Below are positions 3 to 63,778 of a stretch of DNA of 64,000 nucleotides, piece by piece. Each line of letters opens with the position of its first letter. The first letter of the stretch is position 1. Origin of the DNA: Lewinella sp. 4G2 (lineage in GTDB: Bacteria; Bacteroidota; Bacteroidia; Chitinophagales; Saprospiraceae); NCBI RefSeq assembly GCF_001625015.1, contig NZ_LVWJ02000014.1:248001-312000 (forward strand), given 5' to 3'. A program made the translations under genes and the position numbers. Below the pieces are notes generated by a model. The model did no database searches. It saw only the letters and a list, made by a program, of their open reading frames with translations, and was not told the origin of the DNA.

Positions 3-1448
3 CCCGTCCTGATGCCCTTCCGCTATTGCGCGGTCGCGGGTGCCGGGCAAGGACTGAGTAAAACGGACTTTACCCAACTAGTTTACACCAGCTTTTGGGA
101 TGAGGACGCCAGCTATTTCACTTCGGATAATTCGGTACTAAATCAGGTATGGGAACTCTGCCGTTACAGCATGAAGGCCACCTCCTTCGCCAACCTCTAC
201 GTGGACGGTGACCGGGAGCGGATTCCCTACGAAGCGGATGCCTACCTCCAGCAACTCAGCCATTATTCGACCGACCGGGAGTACGCCATCGGCCGACGCA
301 CCATTGAATACTTCATGGAGTACCCAACCTGGCCGACGGAGTGGCAGCAACACGTCCCGCTCATGTTCCACGCCGACTATATGTACACGGGCGATACCGA
401 GCTGATTGAAAAGTATTACGACGACCTGAAGCACAAGGCCCTCCTTGAACTCGTCGGGGAGGACGACCTGGTGAGTTCTACCCGCGTCACCCCGGCCTTC
501 ATGAAAAAGCTGGGCTTCGGCGACCGGAAGGATAAGTTGAAGGACATCGTCGATTGGCCCCCACCCAACTGGCAGGGGAACCCGGACGTCCCCGGCGAAC
601 GGGATGGTTTTGTCTTCATGGATAATAACACGGTGATCAACGCCCTCTTTTACAAGAACATGCTGATCATGTCCGAATTCGCCGACCTGCTCGGGAAGAC
701 GGACGAGGCCCTGGAATTCAAGATCCGTGCCCTGAAGGTCAAACAGGCCGTCAACAATACCCTGCTCGACCGCGAACGGGGCCGCTACGTGGACGGGGAA
801 GGGACGGACCACGCTTCCGTCCACGCCAACATGTTCCCCCTCGCATTCGGGATGGTGCCGGAGGCCTACCGGGAATCCGTCGGGGCCTACATCAAAAGCC
901 GGGGCATGGCCTGTTCCGTCTACGGCTCCCAGTACCTCCTGGAGGCCCTCTACCAGGCGGGGATGGACGATTACGCCCTGGATCTCATGGCCGACACCAC
1001 CGGCAAACGCAATTGGTACAATATGCTGAGGGAGGGCTCCACCGTCACGATGGAAGCCTGGGGCTACCAGTTCAAACCCAACCTGGATTGGAACCACGCC
1101 TGGGGCGGCACCCCGGCGAACATCATCCCCCGCCAATTATGGGGCATTCAGCCAAAAACGCCGGGCTACGGCGTGGCAACCATCCACCCCCAGTTGGGTG
1201 ACCTGAAGTCGACGACCATCAAGGTGCCGACGTTGCGGGGGCCGATCCTGGGAGAGTATCGGTGGTATTCGCCGCGGCGGCAGGTGTACACGATCACGGT
1301 GCCGGGGAATATGGTGGCGGAGTTTGGCTTGGATAACTGGAACGCAGCTTCCTACACCCACAATGGGAAGCTGGTGCCCTCGGCATTTGGGGTGATCCAG
1401 TTACAACCGGGTGAACACCAAATTGAGGTACAGCGCAATGACTCCTAA
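3..1448 (+). CDS. GH78 alpha-L-rhamnosidase, C-terminal part (cut by left edge)
   Basis: Probably removes terminal alpha-L-rhamnose from rhamnogalacturonan or related glycans. The reading frame is open to the left edge, so the N-terminus, which in GH78 carries beta-sandwich domains, is missing; the methionine at 12 is internal. The visible 480 or so residues match the six-hairpin catalytic domain and the C-terminal beta domain of GH78. The acidic cluster [13 protein letters not shown] sits where GH78 enzymes carry their catalytic carboxylates, and the segment [19 protein letters not shown] matches the second conserved Glu and the His-rich loop. The stop lies inside the next gene, an 11-base overlap, so the two are co-transcribed. 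A diverged copy of the dispersed 16-base word lies at 28-43. The family call is firm; the substrate is inferred from neighbours. Confidence 0.85.
28..43 (+). repeat. Dispersed 16-base word, diverged copy
   Basis: GCGCGGTCGCGGGTGC, two differences from GCGCTGCCGCGGGTGC. It is followed by CGGGCAA, close to the CARGCAA-type flank of the copies at 21366 and 23334. It lies inside the GH78 gene. Confidence 0.5.
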
Positions 1449-4400
1449 ATCTAAAACCTCAGCTCCTTTGAAGTATTTCTTCCTCATTGTTGCCCTTTTT
1501 CTTTGCTTGCTGACGTTACCCTCGTGCACGGGAGGCGAGACTATAAATATAGCGCGGCCGGAAGCGCCATCGGGGGAAGAACTCGCCCAAAATTTCCAAT
1601 CTCCACCCGCCTCCGCCAAGCCCAAGACCTGGTTCCACGCCATGTCGGGCAATATGAGCAAGGAAGGCCTGACGAAGGACCTTGAAAGCCTCGCCGAAGT
1701 CGGCATCGGTGGCCTGTTGCTCTTCAACGTCAGCCAGGGCATCCCGGTGGGTGACGTGGTGTACAACTCCGGGGAGCACCACGAAATGCTGGCCCACGCC
1801 GCGGCCGAATCCGAGCGGCTGGGGCTGACCTTTGGCGTCCACAACTGTGATGGCTGGAGCAGCAGCGGTGGGCCGTGGGTGACGCCGGAGCAATCAATGA
1901 AAATGCTGGTGTACAGTGAAACGGTGATCAGCTACGCCGATACTGATACCGTATCGCTCAGCCAGCCGACTACCCGCGAAAATTACTACGAAGACATCGC
2001 CGTTGTTGCCTACCCAAGCCTGGGTAGTGAAGTAGAAGATTTTACCCGTAAGCCTACCATCACCGCTTCGGACGCCAGCTATCCCGTTGAATTGATAAGC
2101 GACGGCCGGATTGACGCGGATCATCGCTTGGGCGAGAAGGGCGCCACGCCGTGGTTGCAATTCTATTTCAAAAAACCAGCTCGCATTCGGTCGGCTGCGG
2201 CCACTTTTACCGACCGCAAGGTAACGGTAACGCTTCAGGCGTCCTGGGACGAAGGGCGGACCTGGCAAGACCAACGGGAATTACAGAAAGTCCGGACCGG
2301 AAAGGGAGAATGGGCGGTGAACGATCACTTCGACGTCATCGAGTCGCGCTATTTCCGGATGCAGTTCAGTGAAAGTGTACGTCTTCGGGAAGCATCGCTT
2401 TACCGCAATTATCTTGTCGATAATCCCCTCGGCCGCACCGCCATGGCGCGCACGGAGGACGCAAAATTTAACCCCATCGGGAACCCTGCGGCGATAACAA
2501 AAATAGATCCCGCTACCGTAGTCGACCTTACGGACCGTATGGATTCGAACGGATTGCTCACTTACAATTTCCCTCCCGGCCATTGGACGGTGCTCCGTTT
2601 CGGGCAGACCAGCACCGGCGCCTTCAACAACCCCGCCAGTTGGGAGGGCCGCGGGCTGGAGGTCGATAAAATGAGCCGCCCCGCCTTCAAGACCCACTAC
2701 GACGCCTTCATCCGCCAGGTCGTTGATAATAGCGGGCCCGTCGCGCCAAACGCCTTGCAGTACGTCGAAATCGACAGTTACGAAGCCGGTGGCCAGAACT
2801 GGACGACCGGTTTTGATTCCATCTTCCGGGCGCGTAAAGGCTACGATCTTATTCCTTTCCTCCCCCTCTTAGCGGGTCGGTTCATGGGCGCTGACGCGGG
2901 TGCCAAGGTGAGGGGCAAGCAAAACGTGGCAGCCGCCGTCCTCTACGACTTCCGTGAGGTAGTGACCAATCTCATCACCGAAAACTACTACGAGTACTTT
3001 ACCGAACTCTGCCACGCCGACGGTCTCCGAACTTACGTGGAACCCTACGGCTTCGGGCCACTCAACGACCTGGATATTGGCGGGACCTGCGACCTCCCGA
3101 TGGGTGAGTTCTGGATGAACCGGGAAATGACGATGGTTGAAAGTGCCGTCTCCGCCGCTCACATCTACGGTAAGCCAATTGTTTCAGCGGAATCTTTCAC
3201 TTCCCGGCCAGAGATCAACTGGAAGGGGAACCCCGCCATGGCGAAGGTCAGTGGGGATAAGGCCTGGGCGAGGGGCATTAACGAATTTATGTTCCACCGC
3301 TTCGCCCACCAGGCCAACCCGCACGTCACGCCGGGGATGACGATGAACCGCTGGGGCTTCCACTTCGACCGTACCCAGACCTGGTGGACCAACGCCGGTG
3401 CGGACTGGTTTCGGTACATCGCCCGGGGGAGTTACCTCCTCCGCCAGGGCCACCCCGTCGCCGACCTGATGATCTTCGTTGGGGACGGTACCCCTAATTC
3501 CTATTTCGACTGGGACGACTTCGACCCGGCCATCCCCAAATGGCTCAACTACGATAACGTGAACGCCGACGTACTCCTGAACCGAACTGGGTTGGAGGAC
3601 GGCGCCATCACCCTCCCCGAAGGTGGGCGCTACCCCCTCCTCGCCCTCAAGAATTGTGACCACCTCAGCCTGGCGACCCTGCGGCGGCTCGTGGAGATCG
3701 CGGAAAGCGGGGTGACGGTCATTGGCGAAAAGCCAACCGACCTGGCTGGATACGGGCACAAAGAGGAGGATTACGAAGCGTTCCGCGACCTGGCCGATCA
3801 GCTCGAACGGCATCTCCAACCCGCCCGCGATTGGGAAGGCCTGATGACTAGCCGCAACCTCCAACCCGATTTAAAACTCACTTCCGCCGATAGCCTGATC
3901 TACGAACACCGCCGGGTGGGAGATACGGAGATCTACTTCTTAGTCAATACCAGTAAGGATTCCGTCAGCTACGCCCTCACTACCCGTACCATAGGCAAGC
4001 AACCGGAGCGCTGGGACCCGATGACCGGAAAGATCAGTGGCGTCGCCCGCTACCGGCACAACCCCACCACGACGGACCTCCGGCTGGACCTGGATGGTGA
4101 GGAATCCATCTTCCTCGTGTTTCGAGATGCCCCCGTCGCCGGGCCGGTCATCAGCCCGGATCAGCTGACGGAACCAGGCATTGAAGCCTTTTTACGCAAC
4201 CCGAAGAACGGGAAAATTGCGGCCAAAATGACGGCGAACAAGATCTACGAGATTGAACTCAACGACGGTCAGCGCGTGGCCCTCGGCGCGGCGGGGATCG
4301 TTCCGGTGCGGACCCTGACCAGACCCTGGGAGGTCACCTTCCGGGAAGAGGATGGCTTTGGGTCGACGCTCCCCTTCGCGGAGCTTACCGACTGGAAGGA

Positions 4401-4896
4401 CCACCCGGACGAACGCGTCCGGTATTACTCCGGCACGGCTACTTACCGGACAACTTTCTCCCTTGCCGCCGAACCCGCCACGGCCTGGGAGCTCGACCTG
4501 GGTGAGGTGGACAACGTAGCGCGTATCCGCCTCAACGGTCAGGACCTGGGGGTGCAGTGGATGAAGCCTTTCCGCGTAGACATTAGCCAGGCCCTGCGCC
4601 CCGGAGAGAACGAATTAGTGATCGAGGTGACCAATTTGTGGAGTAACCGCCTTATCGGGGAGGAGCGTTACCCCAAACAGGATGGTGGCTACCGCATGGC
4701 CAGTTACCACCCCAAGATCAAAATGCCCCGGTGGTACGTCGACAACGAACCGGTGCCACCCGGCCCCCGAACCACCTTCACTACCGCCGACTTTTACGAT
4801 GCCAATGACCCGCTCGTTCCGTCCGGACTAAAGGGTCCGGTACGCATCATTCCGTATCAGGAACGAATCATTGCACCTGCGGCAGCGCCCGAATGA
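1438..4896 (+). CDS. GH106-type alpha-L-rhamnosidase lipoprotein
   Basis: Predicted exo-alpha-L-rhamnosidase of about 1,152 residues, the usual size for GH106. The start at 1438 was chosen because it gives a clean lipoprotein signal (lysines, a hydrophobic run, then LTLPSC with the lipidated Cys near residue 30); an in-frame GTG at 1411 adds nine residues of no obvious use. Family signatures are [19 protein letters not shown], the loop [16 protein letters not shown], and the acidic motifs [18 protein letters not shown] and VSAESFTS, which contain candidate catalytic or calcium-binding glutamates. The C-terminal 150 residues form a GH2-like jelly roll ([14 protein letters not shown], ending in NLWSNRLIG). 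It overlaps the GH78 gene, so two different rhamnosidase families are made together. The last codons (IAPAAAPE) are encoded by a copy of the dispersed 16-base word. Confidence 0.86.
4873..4888 (-). repeat. Dispersed 16-base word at the 3' end of the GH106 gene
   Basis: Exact GCGCTGCCGCAGGTGC on the minus strand; read on plus as APAAAP, two codons before the stop. Confidence 0.9.
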
Positions 4897-9065: not shown

Positions 9066-10178
9066 ATGCGTTACGCCTCTTACTTGCTAGCCACCCTCCT
9101 TCCCATCTTCCTTTGCACCTGCGGCAGCGCCCCGAAAATGGCTAGCCCGAAAAAGGTCGAAACTAAAATGGTTGCCGCCCTAGAATGGCAGGAAGCCAAC
9201 CCGATCTTTTCGAAGGACCCGACGGACTGGACGAACGGTGCCTACTACACCGGCGTAGCCCGCGCGTACGAAGCCACCAAGAATCCCATTTTCCTGGATG
9301 CCATCGAGGATATGGCCAACCGAACCAACTGGGAAACTTGGAACCGCCCCTACCACGCGGACGACGTCGCCATCAGCTATTCCTACCTCGTTGCGGATGA
9401 ATACCGCCCCGGCATCATGGATAAGGAGCCAACGGCAGACTGGATCGAAAAGCACCTGTACGAGGACAACGCCTGGAAATCTAACACCGACCCCAAGCCG
9501 GAAAAATCCATCCTGTGGTGGTGGTGCGACGCCCTCTTTATGGCCCCACCGGTACTGGTGAAATGGTCCAACCTGAAGAACGACCGCCAGTACCTGGAAG
9601 ACATGCACAAGTACTTCGTGGAGACCTACGACCTGCTTTACGACCAGGAAGAAAAACTCTTCGCCCGTGATACCCGCTTCGTCTGGACGGGCTCCCCCGA
9701 GGACCGCAAGGGCGGCAACGGCAAGAAGATCTTCTGGAGCCGCGGCAACGGCTGGGTAATGGGCGGCCTCGCCCTCATGCTCGAGGAAATGCCCCGGGAC
9801 TGGGAGCATTACGGTTGGTACGAAGATCTGTTTAAGGAAATGTCCGCGCGGCTCGTCGAGATCCAACCCGCCGACGGCATGTGGCGCGTCAGCCTTCTCG
9901 AACCCGAGGCCTGGGACCACGGCGAAACCAGCGGCACCGGGTTCTACACTTTTGCTCTAGCCTGGGGCGTCAATAACGGCGTGCTGGATAAGGCGAAGTA
10001 CGGCCCGGCCGTACGCAAAGCCTGGAAAGCGCTGGAGGAGATCCAGCAGGCCGACGGTAAAGTAACCTGGGTACAGAATATTGGTTACGACCCCAAACCA
10101 GCCTCCGCGGAGAGCTGGCAGAACTTCGGCACCGGCGCCTTTTTGATGGCGGGAAGTGAGGTGCTGAAGATGAAGTAA
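9066..10178 (+). CDS. GH105 unsaturated rhamnogalacturonyl hydrolase lipoprotein (YesR/YteR-like)
   Basis: Removes the unsaturated galacturonate left at the non-reducing end by pectate or rhamnogalacturonan lyases, yielding the 5-keto-4-deoxyuronate used by KduI. The 370 residues form one (alpha/alpha)6 barrel. Visible signatures are HADD (97-100), WWWCDALFMAPP with the probable general acid Asp 155, FWSRGNGWVMGGL, and SGTGFYTFALAWGVNNG. The N-terminus is a lipoprotein signal with FLCTCGSA, so it sits on a membrane surface, presumably periplasmic. The lipobox cysteine itself is encoded inside a copy of the dispersed 16-base word at 9115-9130. A strong terminator follows at 10203. The 280 bases upstream hold no gene; a weak promoter-like TATCTTC lies at about 9013. 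Confidence 0.88.
   Translation: MRYASYLLATLLPIFLCTCGSAPKMASPKKVETKMVAALEWQEANPIFSKDPTDWTNGAYYTGVARAYEATKNPIFLDAIEDMANRTNWETWNRPYHADDVAISYSYLVADEYRPGIMDKEPTADWIEKHLYEDNAWKSNTDPKPEKSILWWWCDALFMAPPVLVKWSNLKNDRQYLEDMHKYFVETYDLLYDQEEKLFARDTRFVWTGSPEDRKGGNGKKIFWSRGNGWVMGGLALMLEEMPRDWEHYGWYEDLFKEMSARLVEIQPADGMWRVSLLEPEAWDHGETSGTGFYTFALAWGVNNGVLDKAKYGPAVRKAWKALEEIQQADGKVTWVQNIGYDPKPASAESWQNFGTGAFLMAGSEVLKMK
9115..9130 (-). repeat. Dispersed 16-base word in the GH105 lipobox
   Basis: Exact GCGCTGCCGCAGGTGC on minus; read on plus as TCGSA, including the likely lipidated cysteine. Confidence 0.9.
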
Positions 10179-15588: not shown

Positions 15589-15593
15589 AATTG

Positions 15594-37734: not shown

Positions 37735-37768
37735 CCAACTCATTAAACTAAAATTGTGTACAACACGC

Positions 37769-52900: not shown

Positions 52901-55900
52901 GGTACCCTCTTCGGAGGCGATTACGTTGGTAGTATTAGAGGTATTGTCGCCGAAAGTAGAAGTACCCGGGCCGGCGGTTTGGGACCAAACGCCCGAGCCG
53001 ACCATGACTGTGGCGGCTTCCAGATCGGCTTCGAGGCCACAAACGGATTGGTCCACTCCAGCGTCACTCGTGACTGCAGCGGGGTCCATAAGTTCAATAC
53101 CGGCTGCCGTTGCCTCACAGCCGTCACCGTCGGTGATAACTACGTCGTAGGTACCGGCGGCGAGGTCCATAATGGTAGCGCCCGTGCCGGAGCCGGTGGC
53201 CGTTCCGGTGTAGGTGTAGCTGGCTACGGTGCCAGAGCTAGCCGTCAGGGCGATAGAGCCGGTAGCTTCACCGTTACAGGCTGGGTCCGTAGGCGTGGCG
53301 GTGGCCGTGATGGCTGGCGTTGCCGGAACGATGACCGCTACGGTTGCCGTACATCCTGCTTCGTCCGTCACTTCAATGGAGTACGATCCCGCAGCAAGGT
53401 CCGGGATGCTTGTTCCTGACCCGGCACCTGCGGCAGCGCCCGTGTAAGTATAACTGATCATGCCAGTTTCGTCGGCGGGGGTGATTTCAATGCTACCGTC
53501 CGTGCCACCGTTACAGGTTGGAGGAGTAGCGACACCAGCGGCGCTCAGGTTACAGCTGGGGTCAGCGATGGTGATCATGGCCGTTTCTTCACAACCGTTA
53601 GCGTCGGTGACGGTAACGTTGTAGGAGCCGGCGGCAAGACCAGTTTCGGAGATCGTGGTTACGCCGGTACCCGAATTGGTGCCGTCGTCGTAATCGTAGG
53701 GGCTGGTACCACCCGCAATGCTGATGGAGTAGCTACCGTCCGTCGCACCAACCGCTGATGCGTCAGTGCTAGTCGGGGTAAGAACGAGCGCGTCCGCTTC
53801 AGTTAAGGTAGTCGTTGTCGTAGCGGTACAGCCGTCCTGATCAGTGGTAGTGATCTCGAACGTGCCAGCGCCAACACCAGTGATGGTAGAGCCGGTGCCG
53901 TTGACCGCCGCGCCACCATCCTGTGTGAAGGAGTAGCTAGCAATCGTACCCGAAGACAGGCTAAGCGCGATGCTACCGGTTGTTTCCCCATTACAGGCGG
54001 GGTCGACATTCTCGGTAGAGAGGGTTACTGCGGTTGGTGCCGAAACGGTAGCGGAAGTTGATGCCGTACAGCCATTGGCTCCGGTCACCTCGATGGAGTA
54101 GGTGCCCGCAGCGAGATCCGCAATGGAGGTACCCGTACCACTGCCCGTTGCTGCACCACTGTAGGTGTAGCTAATTGGAGCGGTCAGGTTTTCTACCGTC
54201 AGGCTGGCGGCCCCTAGGTCATCCGCACACACTGGGTCGGAGACGATGGCTACGACCGTAGCGGGGGCGGGGTCCAGAATAGTGAAGCTGGCCATGCCGG
54301 TACAACCATTTGCGTCCGTAACCGTGACCGTGCCCGAACCTGCGGACTGGTTGGCAACGGTAAAGTTGGCGGGTTGGTTAGCGCCCGTGGCCGTACCATC
54401 ATCGTAGGAGAATGGGCCGGTGCCGCCGGTTACGGTAACGGTGTAGCTTCCGTTCATGCCGCCGGCACAGTCCGGAGAACTGCCGATGGCGGTGAGCGTA
54501 AGTCCTTCGTTGACCACTACATCCGTGGTAGCGGTAGCGGTACAATTGTCTGTATCCGTAACCGTTACGGTGTAGGTGCCGGACATAGCGACCATTGTTG
54601 CAGTAAGCGTTGGATTTTGATCCGTGCTGGTGTAGCCGCCGGGGCCAGACCAGGCGTAGGAAGTACCTCCGGATGCCATGAGGGCGATATCCTCACCTTC
54701 ACAGGCGGGGCCATTATTGGATGCCGTAGCAATTACTGCGGCGTGGACGATGATGTCCTCCATATCAGCACAGCCACCAGCGGTGTAAGTAATGGTTTCG
54801 GTAATGTCCGCCCCGGTGGTGTTGATACCCAAAGTGAGTTCACCGGTACTGGGGTTGATTGAGGAACCGATGGTGGAGGCGATGGTCCACACACCGCCCG
54901 TGGGCGTGCCGGTAGCGGTGAGCACTTCTTCGCTACAGCCGTCGAGGCCTACGCTGGTGATGTCGGTGGGGCAGCCACAGACGTCAAAAGCAGTATCGTC
55001 CAGGTAATCGGCGTTCGGTGCGTAGTTAATTATGCCGCTTTCGGGGGAGGTTTCGAGCGCGTCCAGGAGACCATTATCACCGACTGGGCCGGTCACACGG
55101 CCATCGCCGTCGACGGGTTGGCCATGTTGTGCTTCTTCGGCATCCGAACACCCGTCGCCGTCTGAATCAAGGTCGACCTGGTCAGCGAGGCCGTCCATAT
55201 CCGTATCGGGACAAGCGAATACCTGTACTTCAGCCATATTTAGGAAGCCATCATCGATGGCATCTCTGCCGGTTCCGGCGGAGAGCTGAATTTGTACGTA
55301 CCGCCCAGCAGTCCCTTCGGGGAGATCAATGGGGATTTGGGATACACCATCCGCATTACCAATCTGGAATTGGAAGGAAGCCGAGGCTTGACCGATTACT
55401 AGACTGTTGCCATTAGCTGCATTAAACGGCACATCACTTACAAAGACAAATGCATTGGATAGGCGTGCCTTACAACAAGTAACACGATTGAAAATTACAA
55501 TCTGGTTAAGCTTGGAAGTAGCGCCTAAGTCTACTTGCCACCATTCGTGTGGGAAAGGATTACTGGTGTGTTGGAAGTTGAAAGCATTATCGGTGATGCC
55601 ATCAATCGCTAGATCAGCGGTATAGATTGAGTTTAGATCGGAACTCTGCGTGGCGGTGCCAGCCGTAGCGATATTCACCAGGCCGGAACACTCCACACTA
55701 TTCGGAATACCATCATTGTCTAAATCCTCATCACAGATGTCATCGACGCCGTCCATGTCGGTGTCTACGGATGCTCCGGTGGTTTCATCCACGGTGCCGT
55801 CACCATCATCATCGATTCCGTTACAGGAGATCTCAACACAGTCACCATTTACGGTGAAGTTCTGCATGAGGGTGTAGTTAATGACACCGGAATCGTCTGA

Positions 55901-58900
55901 TGTTTCCAGGCTATTTACTAAGCCGTTGGTCCCCACGTCGCCGGCGACCATGGTTTCAGAAGACAAAGAGACTCCACCGTGGCCTGCTTCAAAGGCGTCG
56001 GAACAGCCATCATCATCGGAGTCCAATTCGAGGAAGTCAGCAATATCATCCATATCGGAGTCCTGCGATTCGCAAGCTGTAGCGAAAATGATGTCGTCAA
56101 TAAATAGGACGGGGAAGTTGGTAGGCGCAACTAGTGAAACGGTAGTTGAGGTGCTGGTGGCGGTAAAGGTATTTTCCGTTCTCAACCAGGTATTGTCCGT
56201 TCCGAAGCCAATATTATTGGCCTGCTCCTGTACGCCGTCGAGGAAAAGATTTACATCCGCGCTACTACGGGAGTTCTTCCAGATCCAGAAGGAGACTTTG
56301 TACTCTTCGCCGACAACCAGGCCGTCTACGTCGAAGGAGTAGAGCGTAAAGGGCCGGCCGGCGCTTCCTACGCGGAACTCGGCATAACCAGAACCGGGTA
56401 GCTCAGCCGCACCGGGAGCTGGCAGAGTGGATGTAGGCTCCATCAGTAACGTACCGTCTACCGCACTGGGGTCATTAAAGTCTTCGGTGAAGATCATTCC
56501 ACGCAGGTCGGCGCAGGCACCTTCGTCAGCGTTAGTAATGCCGTCACCGTCAATATCAATGTCCACGTAGTTCAGAATACCATCCATGTCGTTGTCTCCA
56601 CACTGGAAGGCGGAGCCGGTAGTGGTGATGTCAACGTCAATGGTCTGGGTACAGGTAGTACTTGACGCATCCGTAATCACGATCGTGTGGCTACCGACGG
56701 CAAGGTCATTTACTTGCAGGGGAGATGTTGCGGGGCCCTGATCGACTCCATCGACGCTGAAGGTGTAGGGAGGATTGAGCGAGCTGAATGAAAGGGATAC
56801 GCTACCTGTCCCATCACTACAGATCGGGTTGATGATGGTGGTGTCGGTTACAGTGAACATACACACGCCTCCGCAGTCGGCCAGCTCGACGTCCACGCTA
56901 CTCATTACGCTGCAGGTTGCGTTGGCAGCAACAACTGTGTAAGTGTAGGTGCCGGGAGCCGTGGGAAGTGCGCCTCCGGTTACGGTTGGGTTTTGCTCGG
57001 TGGAGGTAAAGCCGTTCGGCCCTGACCACATCCATGATGTGGCGGCACCACCCGATTCGGTGAGTTCAAGTGGATCTCCTACGCAGAGTGGCTCTGCCGC
57101 GGATACCGAAAATGTGGCATAAATAAAGGGATTGCTGGAAAAGTTATCAGCGTCCCCTTCACCCCAAGCTGCTACCTCATTGCCGTCCGGATCTAACAAC
57201 TGAAAGGTTGTTTCTCCGGGGTAACTGTCATTTCCGAAATCATAGACTACGTTGTAGTCTCCCGCAGCGAGGTTGGCGACAAACGAGAGGATCTCTCCCG
57301 CGCCGGCAGAGGCATCCACGCGGTAGCTGCCTACGACCATTCCAGCGGTAGTTTCTATTCTTACTTCACCGGTGGTTCCCCAACCGTCACCATAGGTATC
57401 ACTTATATTAACGGTATAGGCATTTCCGCTACCGACTACACCAGCAATTACCGGGATGACAACCGGGGTAGCTTCAGCCATGCCTGGGTTTGCGGTACAG
57501 CCCCCTACAACGGCCTGCCATGTTCCGGGCGATGAAACATCGATGGGGTTTCCGGTAACCATTTCTCCATTTGGCCCCGTCCAATCCACTTCGGTGCCCG
57601 CAAAATTTGTTACGGTCAGCGTAGAATTGCAATCGGCGTCTACTACGTCGATCACCGGAGTCTGCACGATGGGAGCAAGCTGTTGCGTATTGACGAAGCG
57701 ACGGCAGTTGAGGTTGAGACCTGGGACTACAATTTCGACGCTCACAATATTGAGTGAATTAGTACTTCCAGGCGCGCCCGTAGCGTTGTTGTTGATCGCC
57801 CCCGGGAAGAATACTTCCTTTTCGGTCTGGGTGCCATCGAGCGTGACGTCGACGATCTGATTAAGTAAGCTGTTGACGCCAAAGAAATCATAGTCCAGTC
57901 GGTAGGTTCCGGCAGGATAGGGTTCTCCGTTGGTTTGAGCAAATCCGATATTCGCGGTGATACCACCGTCGCCGAGACATACGGGTGCTGGTTCGATCTT
58001 AGTTATATCCCATTCTTTACAGTCACCCTGTACGCCGATGGCATCCACGTAGAAGTACTCGTTGGCATCCGCCGTGGAGGTGAACCGCAGCTGGATGGTG
58101 GAAGTATTGTAGCTAGCCGGAATCTCCAGTTCGTTGTTCCAGTAACCGTAGCGCTGAAAGCCACCACCGGGGAATACTCTTTGAGGCCTAAGTGCGCCAC
58201 CGAGATTATCGGTGCCCGTAGTTGCATTTTCCACCACGAACGTACCATCAAGCACGTTGTAGGAAAGGCGACCATTACCCTGAATACCGTCAATCGGCCA
58301 CTGGCTGTTGGTTCCAATGCCGGGAAGCACCAGTCCACCAGCGCTTGCACCGTTGATGATCACCTCGACTTCCAGTTCATCGTCGCTATCCGGGCCGTTG
58401 TGAACGCCACCAATCAGATCACCGGTAGCGCCCGCGTCGAAGCGCACCTTTAGGTTGGTGAAGTATTGTAGGCCTCCCACCTCATCCATGGTTAGCGTAG
58501 AGTTCTGCAGGCTAACGCCGGCAAAAGATCGATTAGCGGGGGAGCGCTGACCCCAAAACAGACCTTCTTCGAGAGCGGACTGATCGTAAAACCCTAATCC
58601 CTCATTAATGACTTGAGGTGCCGGAGGGGTGTTTTCACCAAAAATAATACCCGTGGGAATCACCCCGGTCACAACGCCCGTATTCGCTCCAGTGGCAATG
58701 TTGCCGGAGAAAGGCCATTCTGTGGAGCCCGACCAGACACCTCCTTCAAAGTCGTTGAACCAGACGTAGAACTGGGCGAAGTTGTTATCCCTGTCGGTGT
58801 CGTTCGTACCGGGCACTCGCTGTGCGGAGACGACCGTGGAAAGCAACAGCAGCGAAACTGCCAAACAAGTTTTAAAAAGTGTTAGAACGCGTGAATTGGG

Positions 58901-58915
58901 AAAGGTCGTTAACAT
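40949..58915 (-). CDS. Giant T9SS-exported multidomain protein (5,988 residues)
   Basis: Predicted surface adhesin or matrix protein, possibly moved by gliding machinery like SprB. Order from the N-terminus: signal peptide (ending LLLLSTVVSAQ); beta-rich head; one SprB-like repeat; TSP3 repeats; F5/8C discoidin-like domain (about 1078-1230, NIATAGTATQSSD, EWWQVDLG); six SprB-type repeats (about 1478-1942). Next come an enormous thrombospondin-3 calcium-binding array (about 2116-4120, DxDGDGVxD) with two Ig-like inserts, and two further SprB-like repeats. The C-terminal part holds HYR/Ig-like domains from about 4317, a carboxypeptidase-regulatory-like domain (about 5600-5655), a dockerin-like pair (about 5660-5725, VTQDGLINVLDMVAIQRV), a cohesin-like beta domain, and a T9SS sorting domain (about 5900-5988, LYQNTPNPVATETTVNF). 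No enzyme motif was seen. Three copies of the dispersed 16-base word lie inside. The frame is intact over 17,967 bases. Confidence 0.9.
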   Translation of the reverse strand: MLTTFPNSRVLTLFKTCLAVSLLLLSTVVSAQRVPGTNDTDRDNNFAQFYVWFNDFEGGVWSGSTEWPFSGNIATGANTGVVTGVIPTGIIFGENTPPAPQVINEGLGFYDQSALEEGLFWGQRSPANRSFAGVSLQNSTLTMDEVGGLQYFTNLKVRFDAGATGDLIGGVHNGPDSDDELEVEVIINGASAGGLVLPGIGTNSQWPIDGIQGNGRLSYNVLDGTFVVENATTGTDNLGGALRPQRVFPGGGFQRYGYWNNELEIPASYNTSTIQLRFTSTADANEYFYVDAIGVQGDCKEWDITKIEPAPVCLGDGGITANIGFAQTNGEPYPAGTYRLDYDFFGVNSLLNQIVDVTLDGTQTEKEVFFPGAINNNATGAPGSTNSLNIVSVEIVVPGLNLNCRRFVNTQQLAPIVQTPVIDVVDADCNSTLTVTNFAGTEVDWTGPNGEMVTGNPIDVSSPGTWQAVVGGCTANPGMAEATPVVIPVIAGVVGSGNAYTVNISDTYGDGWGTTGEVRIETTAGMVVGSYRVDASAGAGEILSFVANLAAGDYNVVYDFGNDSYPGETTFQLLDPDGNEVAAWGEGDADNFSSNPFIYATFSVSAAEPLCVGDPLELTESGGAATSWMWSGPNGFTSTEQNPTVTGGALPTAPGTYTYTVVAANATCSVMSSVDVELADCGGVCMFTVTDTTIINPICSDGTGSVSLSFSSLNPPYTFSVDGVDQGPATSPLQVNDLAVGSHTIVITDASSTTCTQTIDVDITTTGSAFQCGDNDMDGILNYVDIDIDGDGITNADEGACADLRGMIFTEDFNDPSAVDGTLLMEPTSTLPAPGAAELPGSGYAEFRVGSAGRPFTLYSFDVDGLVVGEEYKVSFWIWKNSRSSADVNLFLDGVQEQANNIGFGTDNTWLRTENTFTATSTSTTVSLVAPTNFPVLFIDDIIFATACESQDSDMDDIADFLELDSDDDGCSDAFEAGHGGVSLSSETMVAGDVGTNGLVNSLETSDDSGVINYTLMQNFTVNGDCVEISCNGIDDDGDGTVDETTGASVDTDMDGVDDICDEDLDNDGIPNSVECSGLVNIATAGTATQSSDLNSIYTADLAIDGITDNAFNFQHTSNPFPHEWWQVDLGATSKLNQIVIFNRVTCCKARLSNAFVFVSDVPFNAANGNSLVIGQASASFQFQIGNADGVSQIPIDLPEGTAGRYVQIQLSAGTGRDAIDDGFLNMAEVQVFACPDTDMDGLADQVDLDSDGDGCSDAEEAQHGQPVDGDGRVTGPVGDNGLLDALETSPESGIINYAPNADYLDDTAFDVCGCPTDITSVGLDGCSEEVLTATGTPTGGVWTIASTIGSSINPSTGELTLGINTTGADITETITYTAGGCADMEDIIVHAAVIATASNNGPACEGEDIALMASGGTSYAWSGPGGYTSTDQNPTLTATMVAMSGTYTVTVTDTDNCTATATTDVVVNEGLTLTAIGSSPDCAGGMNGSYTVTVTGGTGPFSYDDGTATGANQPANFTVANQSAGSGTVTVTDANGCTGMASFTILDPAPATVVAIVSDPVCADDLGAASLTVENLTAPISYTYSGAATGSGTGTSIADLAAGTYSIEVTGANGCTASTSATVSAPTAVTLSTENVDPACNGETTGSIALSLSSGTIASYSFTQDGGAAVNGTGSTITGVGAGTFEITTTDQDGCTATTTTTLTEADALVLTPTSTDASAVGATDGSYSISIAGGTSPYDYDDGTNSGTGVTTISETGLAAGSYNVTVTDANGCEETAMITIADPSCNLSAAGVATPPTCNGGTDGSIEITPADETGMISYTYTGAAAGAGSGTSIPDLAAGSYSIEVTDEAGCTATVAVIVPATPAITATATPTDPACNGEATGSIALTASSGTVASYTYTGTATGSGTGATIMDLAAGTYDVVITDGDGCEATAAGIELMDPAAVTSDAGVDQSVCGLEADLEAATVMVGSGVWSQTAGPGTSTFGDNTSNTTNVIASEEGTYEYTWTVTEGTCTPATSTVSITFEEEPIADAGTDQTEDDEVCGLVTTLGATGAVSSGIWSQASGPGAVSFSNVEDPAAEATATVAGSYELVWSVFGVNCPTAADTVVVDFTVCDADGDMVLNDMDVDDDNDGILDADEGDGNLDTDGDGIPDSEDGDSDNDGITDAAEAYTGSAFGDQTNSGTLANGDGTSLAVNPDGSLAITYGTPVDTDLDGVPNHLDLDSDADGLPDTFEGNFEVVDGDNDGLVGIGIAPDEDMDGIADTNDPDFAGNVLGSFGFLQDRDMDGILNHLDIDIDNDGIVDNIEGQPTFGYLPPLGSDANGNGLDDQYDVSVGGTAIGYTNSDGGSAPDYADSNSDTEDGTGVDPFDIEENHVPNGATEPVTADGLLDISGGFDDADGDGLADIFDLEAGGFGAGTQSNNNATNGQTPFDQPGTPGGERDWRDSGDNDNDGIADAVDTDDDNDGIPDLVEDPTGSNVDTDGDGSPDTRDLDSDGDGIPDVTEAGGDDPDGDGIPGTTVVGTPTAVDPANPGVTEGAPLDGGAPVVLTPIDTDGDDIPDYLDLDSDNDGITDAIEGGGTDENGDGVQGPGIENDSDSDGLADSVDPIDNTDFSADSGTPLEIPNSDDDANPNYLDLDSDDDGIFDVIEAGVDDGDGNGLVDSGTGNSVPDSDLDGLADIVDPIDDLAATAGTGTPATLPNSDDDEFPNYIDIDSDDDGILDNLEAQLTDAAPLIVAVGADDDMDGIDNAFDSGAPEWGGAPGLDPVDTDEADDPDTPDYVDTDTDGDGIDDIDENGLGTPTGMDANMDGLDDGFPTTQTFADLSNDALPGTPEVDFREAGVDTDGDGIIDDLDECPNSLPGATVNATGCTDEDMDGFFPDADMASATFDPDDMEACIPDPSAGTCVPVDDDGDGYFANYPTTDPLYDPEDDMPCIPDDTVAACDTDGDGVSDGDDVCPFTLAGATVNATGCTDEDMDGFFPDIAPASAQYDPDDMMPCVPDASVAVCDTDGDGVPDAMDSCPTSAAGAVVNAAGCTDEDGDGYFPDLDPSLAAFDPDDQEACIPEPSELLCVPVDADGDGYFANYPMDDPLFDPDDTMVCIPDNTVALCDTDGDGVADGNDLCSGTMAGLMVNADGCPDEDADGFFPLDDDTAADYDPDDAMPCIPDDTVAACDTDGDGVPDGEDLCPTSVAGATVNVNGCTDFDGDGFFPDAPMGPAFDPDDAMVCIPDNTIALCDSDGDGVADGNDLCPNSPAGAALAMGFDPLTGCIDADGDGFFPDGPPATFDPEDNNGCVPNPASAACTPIDLDGDGFFANVPTDDPTYDPDDMDGCNPDNSSAACDTDGDGVADADDACPFSAVGATVNASGCTDDDMDGFFPDADPAMANYDPEDDNICVPDGTDTDGDGFCDLEETVELASNEMDPCDPDPRAAACDSDGDGVADGLDSCPNSAPGAIVNAAGCTDADSDGFFPDALVGTPEFDPEDDNPCVPEVTVLCIGVDDDGDGYFANYPATDPLSDPDDADPCNPDPSVGNCDTDMDGVADAIDQCPFTPAGNQVDANGCSDADSDGFFPGVAPTMATYDPDDANGCIPDATSAACDSDQDGIADVDDSCPNSVPGASVNAAGCTDEDMDGYFPDIATTSPVFDPNDMEACIPVPASANCTPIDEDGDGFFANYPMGDPQGDPDDLDPCNPDPTSAACDGDGDGVADEDDLCPNSLAGAMVNASGCTDDDGDGFFPDVDPTDELFDPADDQACTPDLNQGAPDDDCDEDGNPTATDPNPDKPVAANDTISGSAGNPIVFAIVDNDDFLPSSDLSLNTSEGSTAMGMVAFDPVAGTLEYTPTADEAGTTVELNYEVCFVPTNACAVAIVNITVANCPSPVDTDGDGLTDCEETTGVDDPSTLAVPNGITLEDDACDPDPLAVPTGDCDGDGNPNSTDPNVTEAVAENDTTDVLTGQPAVIDIVANDDYLAGPDISLFFTGGTANGEITFDSLAGTLTYVAADDEFDTEVEIGYQVCNLLTAVCADATVIANVGFGCPNTLDTDMDGLSDCEETTGVDDPGTPAVPNGTSDEMNPCDPDPTNGACDQDGDGTFADVDPNDNDPCDPIPTLASCPDNTLAAEATSTDVTANGANDGTITLAIMNGTGPFTVGYTDPDGIIIALDMLTPDADGNIILTDLAPGIYTEISVTDSSDPQQAVPVADQTIGEPTSPFTATVTSTDVTMADANDGTITIATMNGVGPYTVSFTTPEGVDSIVADVVADTDGNLLLTDLAPGDYTNTIVTDSSIPGQTVELGTVTIGDVGAPPVLTCPADTTVLCSESLVPINPEDLQVESECGVVSIDIADPVFTAGDPLGIYMIDYTVTDSCGQVVTCTRTVTQIDSTPPILIAEDTSFLFLDENGMATLMLEDIDYTTSDNCGPVEVELLENNPDGLTTGTITSQSFDGSGFTTSALMMVDIDFSCQDLESGGTLVYLEATDLSFNTVVDSVLVIVQDTFNPVFTLTADQIDLGFGNTASLNIEVEQVASDNCGTPTVDLEVVEPGAGGPGTVDVIATATDASGNTTVLVFTLPEFFAPSDLACISRINVTLDDDCSATVVPSMVLRGDFGTAEDEDFVIVVMDSDTTNGAVIDGCGTFDYKVMLADGSNVSPFDGCWGTLTAEDKTPPVLVETPDNITEGLLCADVDANNVNELGPDVSKCFRVDAAGQIIDGSIDPQLLAVLSPAPFDNTDADVAMIPVFTDNCASEIEVCVSDIVTHPADGCGQTVIERFFRANEADGCAPLNADEQTGDDELVTSFTIAFDRPTLDSLDAMSIEPVVEIEACGNMDSPLEFVPEEDDYPVLTLGERTFSLGSADAMCSMIAVTYENSPNPIQTCPNTVKFQRTYTVVDWCNPTDVRTFSQFVKVGDTTGPDFSGPSMTIDGEGNLDDELTYRTNVGGECAAFVRLDGPGVAALDACDGSAVQLMVAIYPEGDLTQAPFGAYPVELTNGAPELSDALPLGDYAFVYTATDACGNQTVTTVPFTVVDGSGPAAFCENGLNVSLSRPGGTATLTPAQFDKGSQDDCSTNLTYGIAFAPTMDMPTEFFDEVTFTCDDLGVQFVTLEVTDEAGNSNTCWGEVLVELKANDVPTCIAPSAVTLTCSEFGAAIPGGNLEEATSAELDAAFGTPGIVSTCESEVTSTFVVNNLNECGIGTAVRSYVATDAQGGVSGDNCTQLITIVGVYDYQITLPGDATTFDCMDEFEAEELSITGGACDAPVVSSVTEEVFNTAGEECYQIVTTYTIINTCEYDPALGGTTLITRDGLDVDDESVFYLNVVSGNAATTADDLAFTSGSANAQFTPNDDDDNELTGYATSAGRGSFTYVQTINVFDRTSPVVDVAAPTACIPGCTADVSLPFTATDGCLAPRIQLELDPNFTGTFEAATVDGVVITLDATDADNGNYVINATGVPAGDHAIRITAIDGCGNATPVIVPLSVCGDVAPVPLCIQTLVATLQMNDEGTMAMAEVWATDFLTNSPLVDCFGDEVTSYGIVRAGGGAELAAEQTGLKVFCSDAGEFVSVDVYAFSDNLDASEVAPASCQVLIQVDEGDNVDCGTGGNLVAGTILTQDAAPVSDVEVTLTGGDDMDVMRATDADGAFAFAEVPTGMDYTVTPAHAVAIDLQSVKVSDVVRISRMILGIAPFDNAYDYVAADVTQDGLINVLDMVAIQRVILGLDDMYRTGESWRFVNADFAMTADTWMNTFPEVYNVNDLAANILDADFVAVEMGNVLNAEGRTSLNLETEDAQLESGQTHELTFTNADLYGFQGTLDLGRDLELLDVSVTGQGGLNLNYETEGLIGFAVRTQGEITLTVRAVNAVRLSEAIELTDDLVYQEGVDEYGTPGQLGLSFVRTSAPASAQQNALYQNTPNPVATETTVNFDLAEAGEAVLTVQDVAGRVITTRTIDGVAGSNQIKLTRAELGTGGVYTYTLTKGDFAQSLKMVVAGN
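41215..41230 (+). repeat. Dispersed 16-base word (GAC variant) near the giant gene's sorting domain
   Basis: GCGCTGACGCAGGTGC preceded by CT; read on minus as APASAQ in the linker before the sorting domain. It shares the C-to-A variant and the CT flank with the copy at 49936. Confidence 0.85.
46555..52567 (-). repeat. Thrombospondin type 3 repeat array within the giant gene
   Basis: About 2,000 codons of Asp-rich calcium-binding repeats. The 47.6-50.4 kb part is a higher-order tandem unit. It has eleven segments of the type GFFPDxDPxxAxYDPDD and five of the type GYFANYPxxDPLxDPDD, joined by CxPD, CDTDGDGVxDxxDxCP and GAxVNAxGCTDxDxD linkers. The regular low-complexity DNA produces many open frames on the other strand. 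Confidence 0.9.
49936..49951 (+). repeat. Dispersed 16-base word (GAC variant) in the TSP3 array
   Basis: GCGCTGACGCAGGTGC preceded by CT; read on minus as APASAQ in one of eleven paralogous FFPD units without changing unit length. Confidence 0.85.
53090..54480 (-). repeat. Six SprB-type repeats within the giant gene
   Basis: Each unit of about 75-85 residues runs from DPxCNGxxTGSI through SYTYTGxAxGSGTGxxIxDLAAGTYxIEVTDxxGCTAT. SprB repeats are known from the gliding adhesin of Flavobacterium. One unit carries a copy of the dispersed 16-base word (53424-53439). Confidence 0.88.
53424..53439 (-). repeat. Dispersed 16-base word in an SprB repeat
   Basis: Exact GCGCTGCCGCAGGTGC on minus, read as GAAAGAG where sister repeats read GAATGSG or GTATGSG. 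Confidence 0.9.
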
Positions 58916-60736: not shown

Positions 60737-63613
60737 CTAGCGAATCACCACCCGTTCCACGTACTCCTCTCCACCGTGACGGACAGCTAAATAATATAGG
60801 CCGGCCGGATAGCCCGACCAGTCCGCTTCCAACGGTTGGGCCCGGACCAGCCTACCCGACCCATCGTACAGCCGGGCGATCAACCCGGCCGGGGCACCGG
60901 GGAAATCTACGCGGAAATTGTCCCGAGCCGGATTGGGGTACACGCTCAGGTTTCCGCCCCCTACCCTGTTGATCGATACTACTTTACTCACCGCATCGCT
61001 TCCGTCGAGATCGATACTGCGAAGGCGGTAAAATCCTTCGTTCAGGGGGGATTCATCGCGGAAGGAGTAGTCCCGTTCCCTTTGCACCGCACCCGCGGCA
61101 GCGCCCATAACCTTTCCCAGTTCGGACCAATTGGAGAAGCCATTCGGAGAACGCTCCACGGCGTAGTGGCTGAAGTTTTCCTCGCTGGCGACGACCCACT
61201 GCAGGACGTTGGCCTTCGCGGTGGCCGCCCCCGTGAAGGAGGTTAGCTCAACGGGCAACAGCAATGGCTCGGTCTTGATGCTGAGGTCGAACGTGATCTG
61301 ATTATTCCCGTTTTGCGACTGCACGCTGATGAAGTACTCCTCCCCTACCGTCAGGTTACTGAAGAGCACCTCGTCGGTGTCGGACCGGGGGAAACCACAG
61401 TCAAGTTCATCTCCGCTCGCGCAACTCTGGCCGCCGGGGTAGAGGCGGATGATGGCGTTCGTATCGTCAGAAAAACCGGCGAATGACACCGCCGTAAGAT
61501 TAAGCAAGGATACGCGGTGCTCTTCGGCAATGGCCGTGAAGCGGTACCACACGTCGTCATCATTGGCCACCCGGCTACACCCGGTTTCGCTCGATTGAAT
61601 GTCGAAGGATCTGGTCGCCCCGAAAGAAGTGCCACCGATGGTCAGCGTATTGGATAAATTGGGATTCACCGGAGCCACGAAGGCGCCAGTGCATTCATCG
61701 TTGGGCGGCGGCGTACCTACGCAGAGATCAAAATTGACGATGGTGGAAGGGCGGCGCGTCCAGATACGGATATGGTATTCCTCGCCCACCGTGAGATCGG
61801 GCGCTTCGACCACGAAGGTGCTGGTCAGTGGCCCGCAGGCCAGGACGTTCAGGTTGGCCGGGTCGCAGCCACCGTCGGAGAGCTCGTAGTAAAGGTCGGC
61901 CCTCGTCCCACCGTTGGCTTCGGCCAGATTGAAGGCCCGGATCAGGTGTTTTTCCGCCGTGGCGGTGAATGTGTACCAGACATCTCCGTTGTTAGTCGCG
62001 ATGCCACAAGTCCCGCCGGATACCGTGGACCCGAGAGTGGAAGCCCCCAAAAACTGGTCGCAATCGACGGTAGAGTTGACCGGCACGGTGAAGGCCCCGG
62101 CGCACTCATCGTTAGCCGGTGGCGAGGCGAGGCAGATATTGAAATTGACCTGAGCGGGGGAGCGCGCGGTGTAAATCCTGAGTAGGTAGTCCGTCCCCGC
62201 AGTGAGCCCCGTCAGCGTGGCCGGTGGGTCATTGAAGGAGGAGAACCGACTGCAAACGACGGAAGTGAGGGTGCCACAGGCGCCGGAAAATACTTCATAC
62301 TGGAGGTCACGCCCGAAGGTGCCGCTGACGTTCTCCACCTCGGTGAGGTACAGCAAATGATTCGGGCCGGTGGCGGTAAAGGAGAACCAGACGTCGTCAT
62401 CGGGCTCCCCTCCGCAATTGGCCGGCAGCGACTGATTTGCCCCCTGAGTAGTCGCCGCCGTGGGGTTTCCGCAGGTCGTCGCAGCGCTGACCGGTAGAGG
62501 TACCGCGTCCGCGCAATCATCATTGTCAGGTGGTGCGACCTGGTCTTGGATACAGATAGAGTACCCATTCCCCTGTTCAAATCCGAAACTGCCAAGGACG
62601 CGCAGATAATAGGTAGCGCCCGGCGTGAGATTCGTTGGCCGCTCGGAGCAGCCAACACTGGTTAGGCTATTGCAGTCACCTGAGAATACCTCGAACAGCC
62701 GGCCGCCGCCTTCGCCAGAGGGGTCGTTGTCCACGATGGAAATCAGTACCGAAGTGGTGGCGGGCACGAAAGTGTACCAGAGGTCGGTCACGGTTGGGTC
62801 GGAGCAAACTGCCGCCGTGGGGTTACTGGCCGTACCCGTTGCGTCGAAGTATTCCGTGTCAAAATCACAGAAGTCACCCAGCGGTTCCAGCGGCAGGGCG
62901 ATGGCGTTGGCGCACTCGTCGTTGGCCGGGGGCGGGCCCAGCGTCATGACCGTTACCGGCCCTACCGTCAGGCTTTCGTCGTTGCCGGCGTTGCCGTCGC
63001 AGTCCGCCCGGACGTAAAAGTCGTAGGCGGTATCCTCCGATAAGCCGCTGAAGGTGTAAGGAGAGAGTACGTCCTCGAAAGTGGGCGCCGCGGGCAAGGG
63101 GTCGCCGGCGGGGACGAGCCACACGTCGTACCCAATTTCGTTGCCGTTCCAATCGAAGGTCAGGGAGGTGCTGGTGGTTTCGGTAGCGCCTACGTTTTGG
63201 GGTGCCGGGCAGGTAGCGGGCGGGTCGCAACGGGTGGTCGCTTCGAACCCGGCTTCGGTGACTGAGCCGTCGCTTTCAAAGGTTACCGTCAGGCAGCCGT
63301 CCGCCGCCGTAGAGGTATACAGGTTGCCCGGGCTGGTTGGGCTGTCGATGAAATCGGTCGTCCCAATACCATTATATACGGTCACGGCGTCGCAGCAAAA
63401 TTCCAGTTCCAGGAAGGGGAAGCTGACGGAGGCCACCTCACCGTTCACGGTGGGGCAGATCTGGTAGGTTTCGAAGGCGTCGTCGGGGTAATTCCCGTTT
63501 GCGCCACCCGGGTCAAAGAATCCATCGCCACAATTGATGATGGTTTGGGCGCTGGCGCTGGTGCAGAGCGAAAGAACGAGCAACAAAAGGAAGATCAGGG
63601 TAGAAAGGCGCAT
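60737..63613 (-). CDS. T9SS-exported protein with CUB, FN3 and four repeat domains
   Basis: Predicted surface or secreted protein of 958 residues. Order: signal peptide (MRLSTLIFLLLLVLSLCTSASAQ); a CUB-like domain (about 25-130, FLELEFCCDAVTVYNG); an FN3 domain (CPAPQNVGATETTSTSLTF); four repeats of 120-150 residues, each starting PPxNDxCxxA and containing VWYxFTA and a Cys pair; a linker; and a type A T9SS sorting domain (SVYPNPARDNFRVDF, ending YVERVVIR). No enzyme motif is visible, so binding is the likely role. A copy of the dispersed 16-base word encodes GAAAGA at 61089. The gap of 201 bases to the kinase gene shows nothing I can support. Confidence 0.82.
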   Translation of the reverse strand: MRLSTLIFLLLLVLSLCTSASAQTIINCGDGFFDPGGANGNYPDDAFETYQICPTVNGEVASVSFPFLELEFCCDAVTVYNGIGTTDFIDSPTSPGNLYTSTAADGCLTVTFESDGSVTEAGFEATTRCDPPATCPAPQNVGATETTSTSLTFDWNGNEIGYDVWLVPAGDPLPAAPTFEDVLSPYTFSGLSEDTAYDFYVRADCDGNAGNDESLTVGPVTVMTLGPPPANDECANAIALPLEPLGDFCDFDTEYFDATGTASNPTAAVCSDPTVTDLWYTFVPATTSVLISIVDNDPSGEGGGRLFEVFSGDCNSLTSVGCSERPTNLTPGATYYLRVLGSFGFEQGNGYSICIQDQVAPPDNDDCADAVPLPVSAATTCGNPTAATTQGANQSLPANCGGEPDDDVWFSFTATGPNHLLYLTEVENVSGTFGRDLQYEVFSGACGTLTSVVCSRFSSFNDPPATLTGLTAGTDYLLRIYTARSPAQVNFNICLASPPANDECAGAFTVPVNSTVDCDQFLGASTLGSTVSGGTCGIATNNGDVWYTFTATAEKHLIRAFNLAEANGGTRADLYYELSDGGCDPANLNVLACGPLTSTFVVEAPDLTVGEEYHIRIWTRRPSTIVNFDLCVGTPPPNDECTGAFVAPVNPNLSNTLTIGGTSFGATRSFDIQSSETGCSRVANDDDVWYRFTAIAEEHRVSLLNLTAVSFAGFSDDTNAIIRLYPGGQSCASGDELDCGFPRSDTDEVLFSNLTVGEEYFISVQSQNGNNQITFDLSIKTEPLLLPVELTSFTGAATAKANVLQWVVASEENFSHYAVERSPNGFSNWSELGKVMGAAAGAVQRERDYSFRDESPLNEGFYRLRSIDLDGSDAVSKVVSINRVGGGNLSVYPNPARDNFRVDFPGAPAGLIARLYDGSGRLVRAQPLEADWSGYPAGLYYLAVRHGGEEYVERVVIR
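61089..61104 (-). repeat. Dispersed 16-base word in the CUB/T9SS gene
   Basis: Exact GCGCTGCCGCGGGTGC on minus, read as GAAAGA in the domain before the sorting signal. Confidence 0.9.
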
Positions 63614-63762
63614 GATTACGAGCGGTTGGTGACGTTCTGCAAACTTCGCCGCTGGTGGGGGTGGGGTGCGCTACCCTGATGGGTGGTTTTGGGGGGGATT
63701 GCTTATTTCTATTTGGGCAAAATGGACTATTTCCATGGCCAGGCAGGCTTCAAAAAAGCTGG

Positions 63763-63778
63763 GCGCTGCTGCGGGTGC
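63763..63778 (+). repeat. Dispersed 16-base word, intergenic near right edge
   Basis: GCGCTGCTGCGGGTGC, one difference, between the CUB protein gene and the partial gene at the edge. Confidence 0.8.

Follow-up and report, generated by a model that had tools for sequence, protein, structure and literature searches.

A recurring word in the genome of Lewinella sp. 4G2 and its relatives that resembles a DNA uptake sequence

What kind of signal is a 16-base word that comes back again and again on both strands of a bacterial genome? The question was raised by a stretch of 64,000 nucleotides of Lewinella sp. 4G2 (contig 14, positions 248001-312000; hereafter the window, whose coordinates are used below), in which a first-pass annotation had noted many copies of the word GCGCTGCCGCRGGTGC. 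In the whole genome of 5,213,657 bases GCGCTGNCGCRGGTGC was found exactly 957 times, 476 times in forward and 481 times in reverse orientation, whereas the reversed-pattern control gave 0 matches. A longer form with at most two mismatches had 1290 copies as compared to 40 in its control. The density is about one word per ~4 kb, counting both strands, which is far above chance, and the recurrence was thereby confirmed as real and genome-wide. Chance levels in the rest of the genome, one of the outcomes by which the annotation would have been refuted, were not seen. We consider it probable (about 0.72) that the word serves self-recognition in the manner of a DNA uptake sequence and is maintained by uptake-biased recombination. 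The copy number, the balance of the strands, the dialects of related species, the retention of words at orthologous places and their tolerance in coding sequence all fit the selected, uptake-like signal that had been proposed.

The motif was built from 195 sites that differ from the 17-letter consensus GGCGCTGNCGCRGGTGC by no more than one letter. They come from four genome pieces of 862,648 bases in total, the window among them; 87 exact sites gave the same motif. It was found to be longer than 16 letters, with an AT-rich stretch at positions -5 to -2, the core GGCGCTGNCGCRGGTGC, and a spaced, purine-rich tail reaching to about +35. A G stands at -1 in 70% of the sites. Within the core, counted from 0, position 7 is free and position 11 is A or G. 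The tail consists of R18, R19, G20 (85%), A22, A23, G25, G26, G27, R30, R31 and G32 and fades by about +36; judging by their spacing, the tail elements may be contacted from one side of the helix. Outside about -7 to +36 the sequence carries no information, and shared flanks or terminal repeats of the type known from repetitive extragenic palindromic (REP) elements or miniature inverted-repeat transposable elements (MITE) were not seen. The flanks hold about 9 bits (about 2 upstream and 7 in the tail), a value independent of the choice of sites because the flanks were not used for selection, whereas the 28 bits of the core are inflated, as sites were picked by their core match. Together the motif has about 37 bits, with the core part inflated, against 13 bits needed for its frequency, which argues for drive rather than for a chromosomal site sized for its job.

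In the window, the ten exact copies of GCGCTGCCGCRGGTGC claimed by the annotation were confirmed by a recount. The recurrence of 15 copies described there, with four copies at one difference and one at two, was sound, while its numbers had to be raised to five and three, giving 18 copies with at most two differences. Likewise, both strands are used as stated, in a ratio of 10 on the plus strand to 8 on the minus strand instead of 8 to 7. Thirteen of the 18 copies lie within open reading frame (ORF) calls, in several frames, and five between them, in agreement with the five or six intergenic copies noted earlier. Most cores are directly preceded by GG, as had also been observed, and are followed by a purine-rich tail. 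When three differences were allowed, 24 sites were counted in the window, as compared to 2.08 on average and 6 at most in 100 dinucleotide shuffles, which bears out that the recurrence is not due to chance. The copies are given here one per line, with mismatches counted against GGCGCTGNCGCRGGTGC.

27-43, plus strand: word with 2 mismatches, within ORF 12-1448 on the same strand
2887-2903, plus strand: word with 0 mismatches and A at the free position, within ORF 1654-4896
4873-4889, minus strand: word with 0 mismatches, at the 3' end of ORF 1654-4896, which is on the opposite strand
9115-9131, minus strand: word with 0 mismatches, in the N-terminal signal-peptide-like stretch (CTCGSAP) of ORF 9066-10178
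15593-15609, plus strand: word with 0 mismatches, intergenic
17380-17396, minus strand: word with 1 mismatch, within the short ORF 17300-17602
21365-21381, plus strand: word with 0 mismatches, intergenic according to the ORF calls made here
23334-23350, minus strand: word with 1 mismatch, intergenic with divergent ORFs on either side
27288-27304, plus strand: word with 0 mismatches, within ORF 26880-27626
29675-29691, minus strand: word with 0 mismatches, within ORF 29533-33297
34769-34785, plus strand: word with 0 mismatches, at the 3' end of ORF 33533-34792
37719-37735, minus strand: word with 0 mismatches, intergenic
41214-41230, plus strand: word with 1 mismatch, within the giant ORF 40949-58816, which is on the opposite strand
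49935-49951, plus strand: word with 1 mismatch, within the giant ORF 40949-58816, on the opposite strand
53424-53440, minus strand: word with 0 mismatches, within the giant ORF 40949-58816, on the same strand
61089-61105, minus strand: word with 0 mismatches, within ORF 60737-63613
63548-63564, plus strand: word with 1 mismatch, in the signal-peptide-like stretch (CTSASAQ) of ORF 60737-63613, which is on the opposite strand
63762-63778, plus strand: word with 1 mismatch, intergenic

The giant ORF belongs to a minus-strand open frame at 40949-58915 (ORF 40949-58816) of 5988 codons, and three words lie within it.

Of 20 other genomes of the same genus, 17 carry the exact word, and none of 39 genomes from other genera does. 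A search with a wider genus pattern covered 248 genomes drawn from the family. Lewinella sp. 4G2 and four genus mates had 395-1770 matches (controls 41-77), and the 243 genomes of other genera did not go beyond 57, a number reached in a genome whose control had 52; the largest excess over a control was 13 (17 versus 4). The word is thus limited to one genus among the genomes searched. This genus is probably Neolewinella: among the 80 contigs listed with exact matches in a collection of named genomes, two were Neolewinella and the rest were scattered single matches in other groups. A de novo word search in 20-80 kb of each of 12 genomes of other genera gave no word with a genus-like copy number on both strands. 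In that search one genome (G035) had up to 26 copies of a word, nearly all on one strand, and another (G025) had several words with up to 7 copies in 40 kb, partly on both strands.

Within the genus the word has dialects. For 14 genus mates they were determined from weight matrices or repeated words in 80-100 kb per genome, so that stretches of 15 of the 21 genus genomes were read including our own, and the dialect was resolved in all but G015. The form GGCGCGG.CGCAGGTGC is used by G002, G005, G006, G014 and G019, GGCGGGG.CGC.GGTGC by G009, G012 and G020, and GGCGGGG.CGCRGGWGC by G004 and G017. In G001 and G007 the middle is two bases longer (GGCGSCGGAGCGCRGG); with at most one mismatch this long form has 679 and 488 copies in the two genomes, respectively, and 1 in each control. 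Elsewhere it has 12-168 copies in each of 17 other genus mates, 0 in G011 and 2 in our own genome. Six genomes (G002, G013, G015, G016, G017 and G020) carry a long-middle minority of 94-168 copies beside their main dialect (controls 0-5), as if both spacings were tolerated. The word of G011, CTAACAAAGTAGCRNNG, is unrelated to all of these and was counted 775 times (398/377; control 3); the 59 further genomes searched had no more than three copies apiece.

The dialects agree with a ComEC tree of 18 genus genomes. In this tree G011 stands outside the rest on a long branch (80/80 support for the remainder), Lewinella sp. 4G2 (G000) is paired with G019, and the pair G001 and G007 is nested in the otherwise GGCGGGG group. 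In 462,648 bases of our own genome, six imperfect words have G for T at the sixth letter, as in the GGCGCGG dialect of the sister group, and at one of these sites G019 has a GGCGCGG word in the alignment. Other mismatches, those at the first letter and the A/G position, occur more often. The sixth-letter-G words may be relics of an older dialect.

We then compared orthologous places, mapped by aligned flanks, in 29 directed genome pairs, 14 of which had at least four mappable sites. In these 14 pairs the partner had a word in the same orientation at 33-78% of the mapped places, as compared to 0.9-2.4% at random places. Words of G004 met a same-orientation word in G017 in 14 of 18 cases, and those of our own genome in G019 in 6 of 9. 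Between different dialects, 5 of 9 words of G007 met a word in the G004 dialect in G004. The five pairs with one to three mappable sites shared 3/3, 1/1, 0/2, 0/1 and 0/1 words, and ten pairs had no such site. By direct alignment, 13 of 16 aligned G004 sites were shared in G017. Letter conservation was determined from 66 non-independent aligned pair rows of five genomes (sites with at most one mismatch and aligned flanks). Thirteen of the 14 fixed core letters were identical at 0.74-0.89 and the seventh at 0.45, where the flanks averaged 0.70 and the free core letters 0.36-0.56. The annotation had raised the case that close relatives lack the word at all orthologous sites, with clean insertions. 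Relatives often keep their words; where the word was absent (eight comparisons), 10 of 17 rows had a gap in the 41-column span, in poorly aligned stretches.

The two orientations were balanced in all four genome pieces, with 49/49 words in 398 kb and 20/19, 26/24 and 14/16 in the others. The GC skew is near zero in these pieces and gives no leading strand; the balance is a local one. The order of the orientations is not random. Neighbouring words at least 500 bases apart had opposite orientation in 136 of 187 cases in our own genome (136:51, p = 4e-10), and in 131 of 207 when 13 genus mates were pooled (p = 1.6e-4). The orientations alternate because words in the same orientation exclude each other within about 2 kb and opposite ones do not. 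Perfect words gave 0 same-orientation pairs closer than 2 kb where 22.7 were expected. The full set of 217 sites (up to two mismatches) gave 5 where 52.4 were expected, and its opposite pairs numbered 58 (54.7 expected). In 12 genus mates pooled without G011 there were 18 same-orientation pairs (51 expected) and 63 opposite ones (54 expected), and the exclusion was weaker in the clade of G004, G017 and G007. With a coefficient of variation (CV) of 0.79 the spacing of all words is more even than random, and on each strand alone the CV is 0.57 and 0.60 against 0.96 at random. Word pairs closer than 500 bp were inverted in 23 of 26 cases.

Either close direct repeats are lost since they are prone to deletion, or each orientation acts alone like a polar signal. 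Models with polar tracts or one-sided import were also considered for the exclusion and were rejected. Below 2 kb there are 38 convergent and 20 divergent pairs, about 27 of each being expected (half of the 54.7 opposite pairs), and no simple one-sided import model fits because convergent and divergent pairs are not excluded as well. To our knowledge, same-strand exclusion has not been reported for uptake words. The ten longest word-free gaps were listed and the three longest looked at for ORFs; one of these three was without a complete ORF call.

Placement relative to genes was determined for the same 217 sites with a simple ORF caller. Intergenic sites made up 100 of the 217 (46%), although only 17% of the sequence is intergenic, and the 117 sites within ORFs use five of the six frames. 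In 38 of these 117 the word falls in the first fifth of the ORF. About 19 of the 28 intragenic words within 110 bases of a start encode the end of a signal-peptide-like stretch (LLL-CTCVSAQ, APAAAQ), as judged by eye. Two of the 100 intergenic sites are at piece edges and stand outside the gene-order classes, which leaves 98 classed sites. In tandem gaps 33 words had the orientation of the gene and 28 the opposite one.

These features taken together fit uptake sequences better than any other known class. As a mechanism, a surface DNA receptor of a natural-transformation machine would prefer DNA that carries the word. Preferred uptake followed by homologous recombination would then act as a molecular drive that spreads and keeps it, with gaps between genes, signal-peptide codons and Ala/Gly-rich stretches as tolerant landing places. 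A shift in receptor preference would change the words in place and so give rise to species dialects. The step across the outer membrane would proceed without a type IV pilus. We infer that the cells take up DNA, that a receptor reads the word, and that the outer-membrane step is pilus-less. Our claim is that the word functions in the manner of an uptake sequence, though in a variant setting, one in which, as far as tested, the pilus machine was not found. Much more tentatively, these Bacteroidota might possess a pilus-independent uptake with its own self-word, whose orientations act separately (strand-polar) and whose genomes have been rewritten between dialects, up to the new word in G011, the sole genus mate with DUF5689; this extended form we regard as possible and rather doubtful.

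Some of the machinery for transformation was detected. All 21 genus genomes have ComEC, which was found in 33 of the 36 genomes searched overall. DprA is present in 20 of the 21, the miss being a 55% complete genome, and in 45 of 46 searched overall; HHH_3 domains, a type that ComEA contains, were found in 28 of 29. According to passages of PMC8459023, Riemerella anatipestifer cannot be transformed without a protein that contains the domain DUF5689. Neither our own genome nor 19 of the 20 genus mates had a match to this domain; the exception was G011, and of 39 genomes from other genera 30 had it. In G011 (G011:C115:8691-10592) a 708-codon frame carries three tandem DUF5689 domains. Among the genus mates, an unrelated word was found in G011 alone, and so was a DUF5689 match; most DUF5689-bearing genera do not have the word of G011. 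We take this single co-occurrence as a lead, no more.

Several results weigh against an uptake sequence. ComEC and DprA do not discriminate, as most relatives without the word have them as well. A full-length type IV pilus ATPase was not found when PF00437 was searched in 29 genomes, a search that did not extend to secretins and pilins. PF00437 (T2SSE) had weak matches in 27 of the 29, 12 of them over the cut-off and none covering more than 93 of 370 positions; we take these partial matches to be nucleotide-binding motifs of other ATPases. The known type of receptor, a pilin of the type IV pilus, is thus probably absent, and uptake would be pilus-independent because no full-length ATPase was found. 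Transformation of a genus member was not found in the open-licence PMC literature, and we know of none. Same-strand exclusion is not predicted by an orientation-blind uptake. Alternation, in turn, was not seen in G011 (5/14 neighbours opposite) and G012 (8/18). Convergent gaps hold 8 of the 98 classed intergenic sites and 19% of the intergenic bases, unlike the terminator use of inverted pairs that is common, if not defining, among the DNA uptake sequences (DUS) and uptake signal sequences (USS). Words within 100 bp upstream of a start were opposite to the gene in 31 of 46 cases, as compared to 15 of 44 farther away (Fisher p 0.003), and in the first 110 bases of ORFs 20 of 28 were opposite, as compared to 39 of 89 beyond (p 0.016). 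This orientation bias near gene starts counts here because drive alone does not predict it. The orthologous comparison rests on small numbers, and for the word of G011 there were 0 mappable sites onto the positions of the others. Finally, tail letters 19-24 were identical at 0.36-0.56, below the flank, which speaks against a fixed tail; a degenerate make-up of the tail may explain it.

The explanation that survives best after an uptake sequence is a Chi-like recombination hot-spot, a polar signal for a RecBCD/AddAB-type enzyme that is needed every few kb on each strand. The annotation had named uptake sequences and Chi side by side; the first suggestion is supported, and Chi is the poorer fit. 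With one word per ~4 kb the density resembles that of Chi in E. coli, and the words behave independently on each strand, being evenly spaced on each alone with an exclusion restricted to the same strand. However, a 17-letter core with informative flanks is far above the 5-8 bp of known Chi sites, and the strands are locally equal. Known Chi readers are conserved enzymes, whereas genus mates here have other spellings, another spacing or an unrelated word. We therefore regard a Chi-like role as unlikely.

A site bound along the whole chromosome by a chromosome-organising or segregation protein would agree with the more than randomly even spacing and with the presence of words in all four pieces examined. 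The placement of more than half of the sites in ORFs, in five frames and with no domain restriction seen, argues against it. Replacement of a dialect would also need the whole set of sites to move, and no such sites were found outside the genus in the genomes searched. We rate this explanation as very unlikely.

At a similarly low level, if anything slightly lower, stands a transcription signal, be it a promoter, operator or terminator. The intergenic excess, the concentration in the first fifth of ORFs and the preference for the opposite orientation just upstream of starts are in its favour. On the other side, most sites are within ORFs, few are in convergent gaps, tandem gaps show nearly as many words in one orientation as in the other, and the intragenic 5' excess consists largely of signal-peptide-like codons read from the opposite strand. 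A promoter or operator was accordingly judged unlikely, despite the orientation bias near starts. A small mobile or repeat element (a REP, a MITE or the end of an insertion sequence) spread by copying is hardly credible: it would suit the high copy number, the inverted close pairs and the gaps in word-absent rows, but the flanks are unrelated, the sites are often orthologous, and words of different dialects stand at the same place.

Descriptions of uptake words come mainly from two proteobacterial families, where uptake proceeds via type IV pili. No report of such a signal for Bacteroidetes, Lewinella, Neolewinella or Saprospiraceae was found in the open-licence PMC literature, in line with the earlier statement that none is known for this group. 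In the DUS of Neisseriaceae, as described in parts of PMC3630211, the dialects are congruent with the core-genome phylogeny, few letters are common to all of them, and one dialect has a one-base insertion. The word described here shares with the DUS, whose receptor is ComP, the very high copy number, the permissive intergenic and coding places and the species dialects (same parts of PMC3630211). It differs by its phylum, its longer motif and lower density, the lack of a detected type IV pilus ATPase, the few convergent-gap sites, the same-strand exclusion and the one species with an unrelated word.

The AT-tracts of the USS of Pasteurellaceae are phased. Passages of PMC7811141 describe a core flanked by these tracts, and together with parts of PMC1939737 they report a fairly even spacing, a non-coding excess and molecular drive as the means of maintenance. 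The word resembles the USS in its core with AT-tracts beside it, in its even spacing and in its non-coding excess; unlike the USS it has an unrelated sequence and a purine/G-rich tail. Uptake of the USS is independent of orientation in a regression table of PMC1939737, whereas the spacing of the word depends on orientation. A parallel among Bacteroidota is Riemerella anatipestifer, for which passages of PMC8459023 describe transformation with ComEC, DprA and an HHH protein and recognise no classical outer-membrane uptake proteins. No uptake word is mentioned in those passages, a pilus-independent uptake has been proposed for this species, and the DUF5689 found there is unmatched in all but one of the genus genomes studied here.

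If the word is an uptake sequence, uptake words would have arisen independently in a distant phylum, in a setting where no pilus ATPase is evident, and the genus would exchange DNA by transformation. About five dialects and one wholly different word within one genus would make a natural experiment on the co-change of a receptor and about a thousand sites. Same-strand exclusion would be a quantitative pattern that can be tested in Haemophilus and Neisseria.

Other repeats were also observed. Short arrays of the ACTATAG/ACTACAG type occur in the window just before 15593 and in contig 11 of the same genome. In contig 11, ACTACAGACTA has 21 copies, with look-alikes in G006 (CTACCGAACTA), G019 (CTACCGCCTA) and G007 (CTAAAAGACTA). 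In G017 (G017:C3:220001-300000), TCGGCCGACGA was found in 16 copies in 80 kb, some of them in a ~99-base tandem array.

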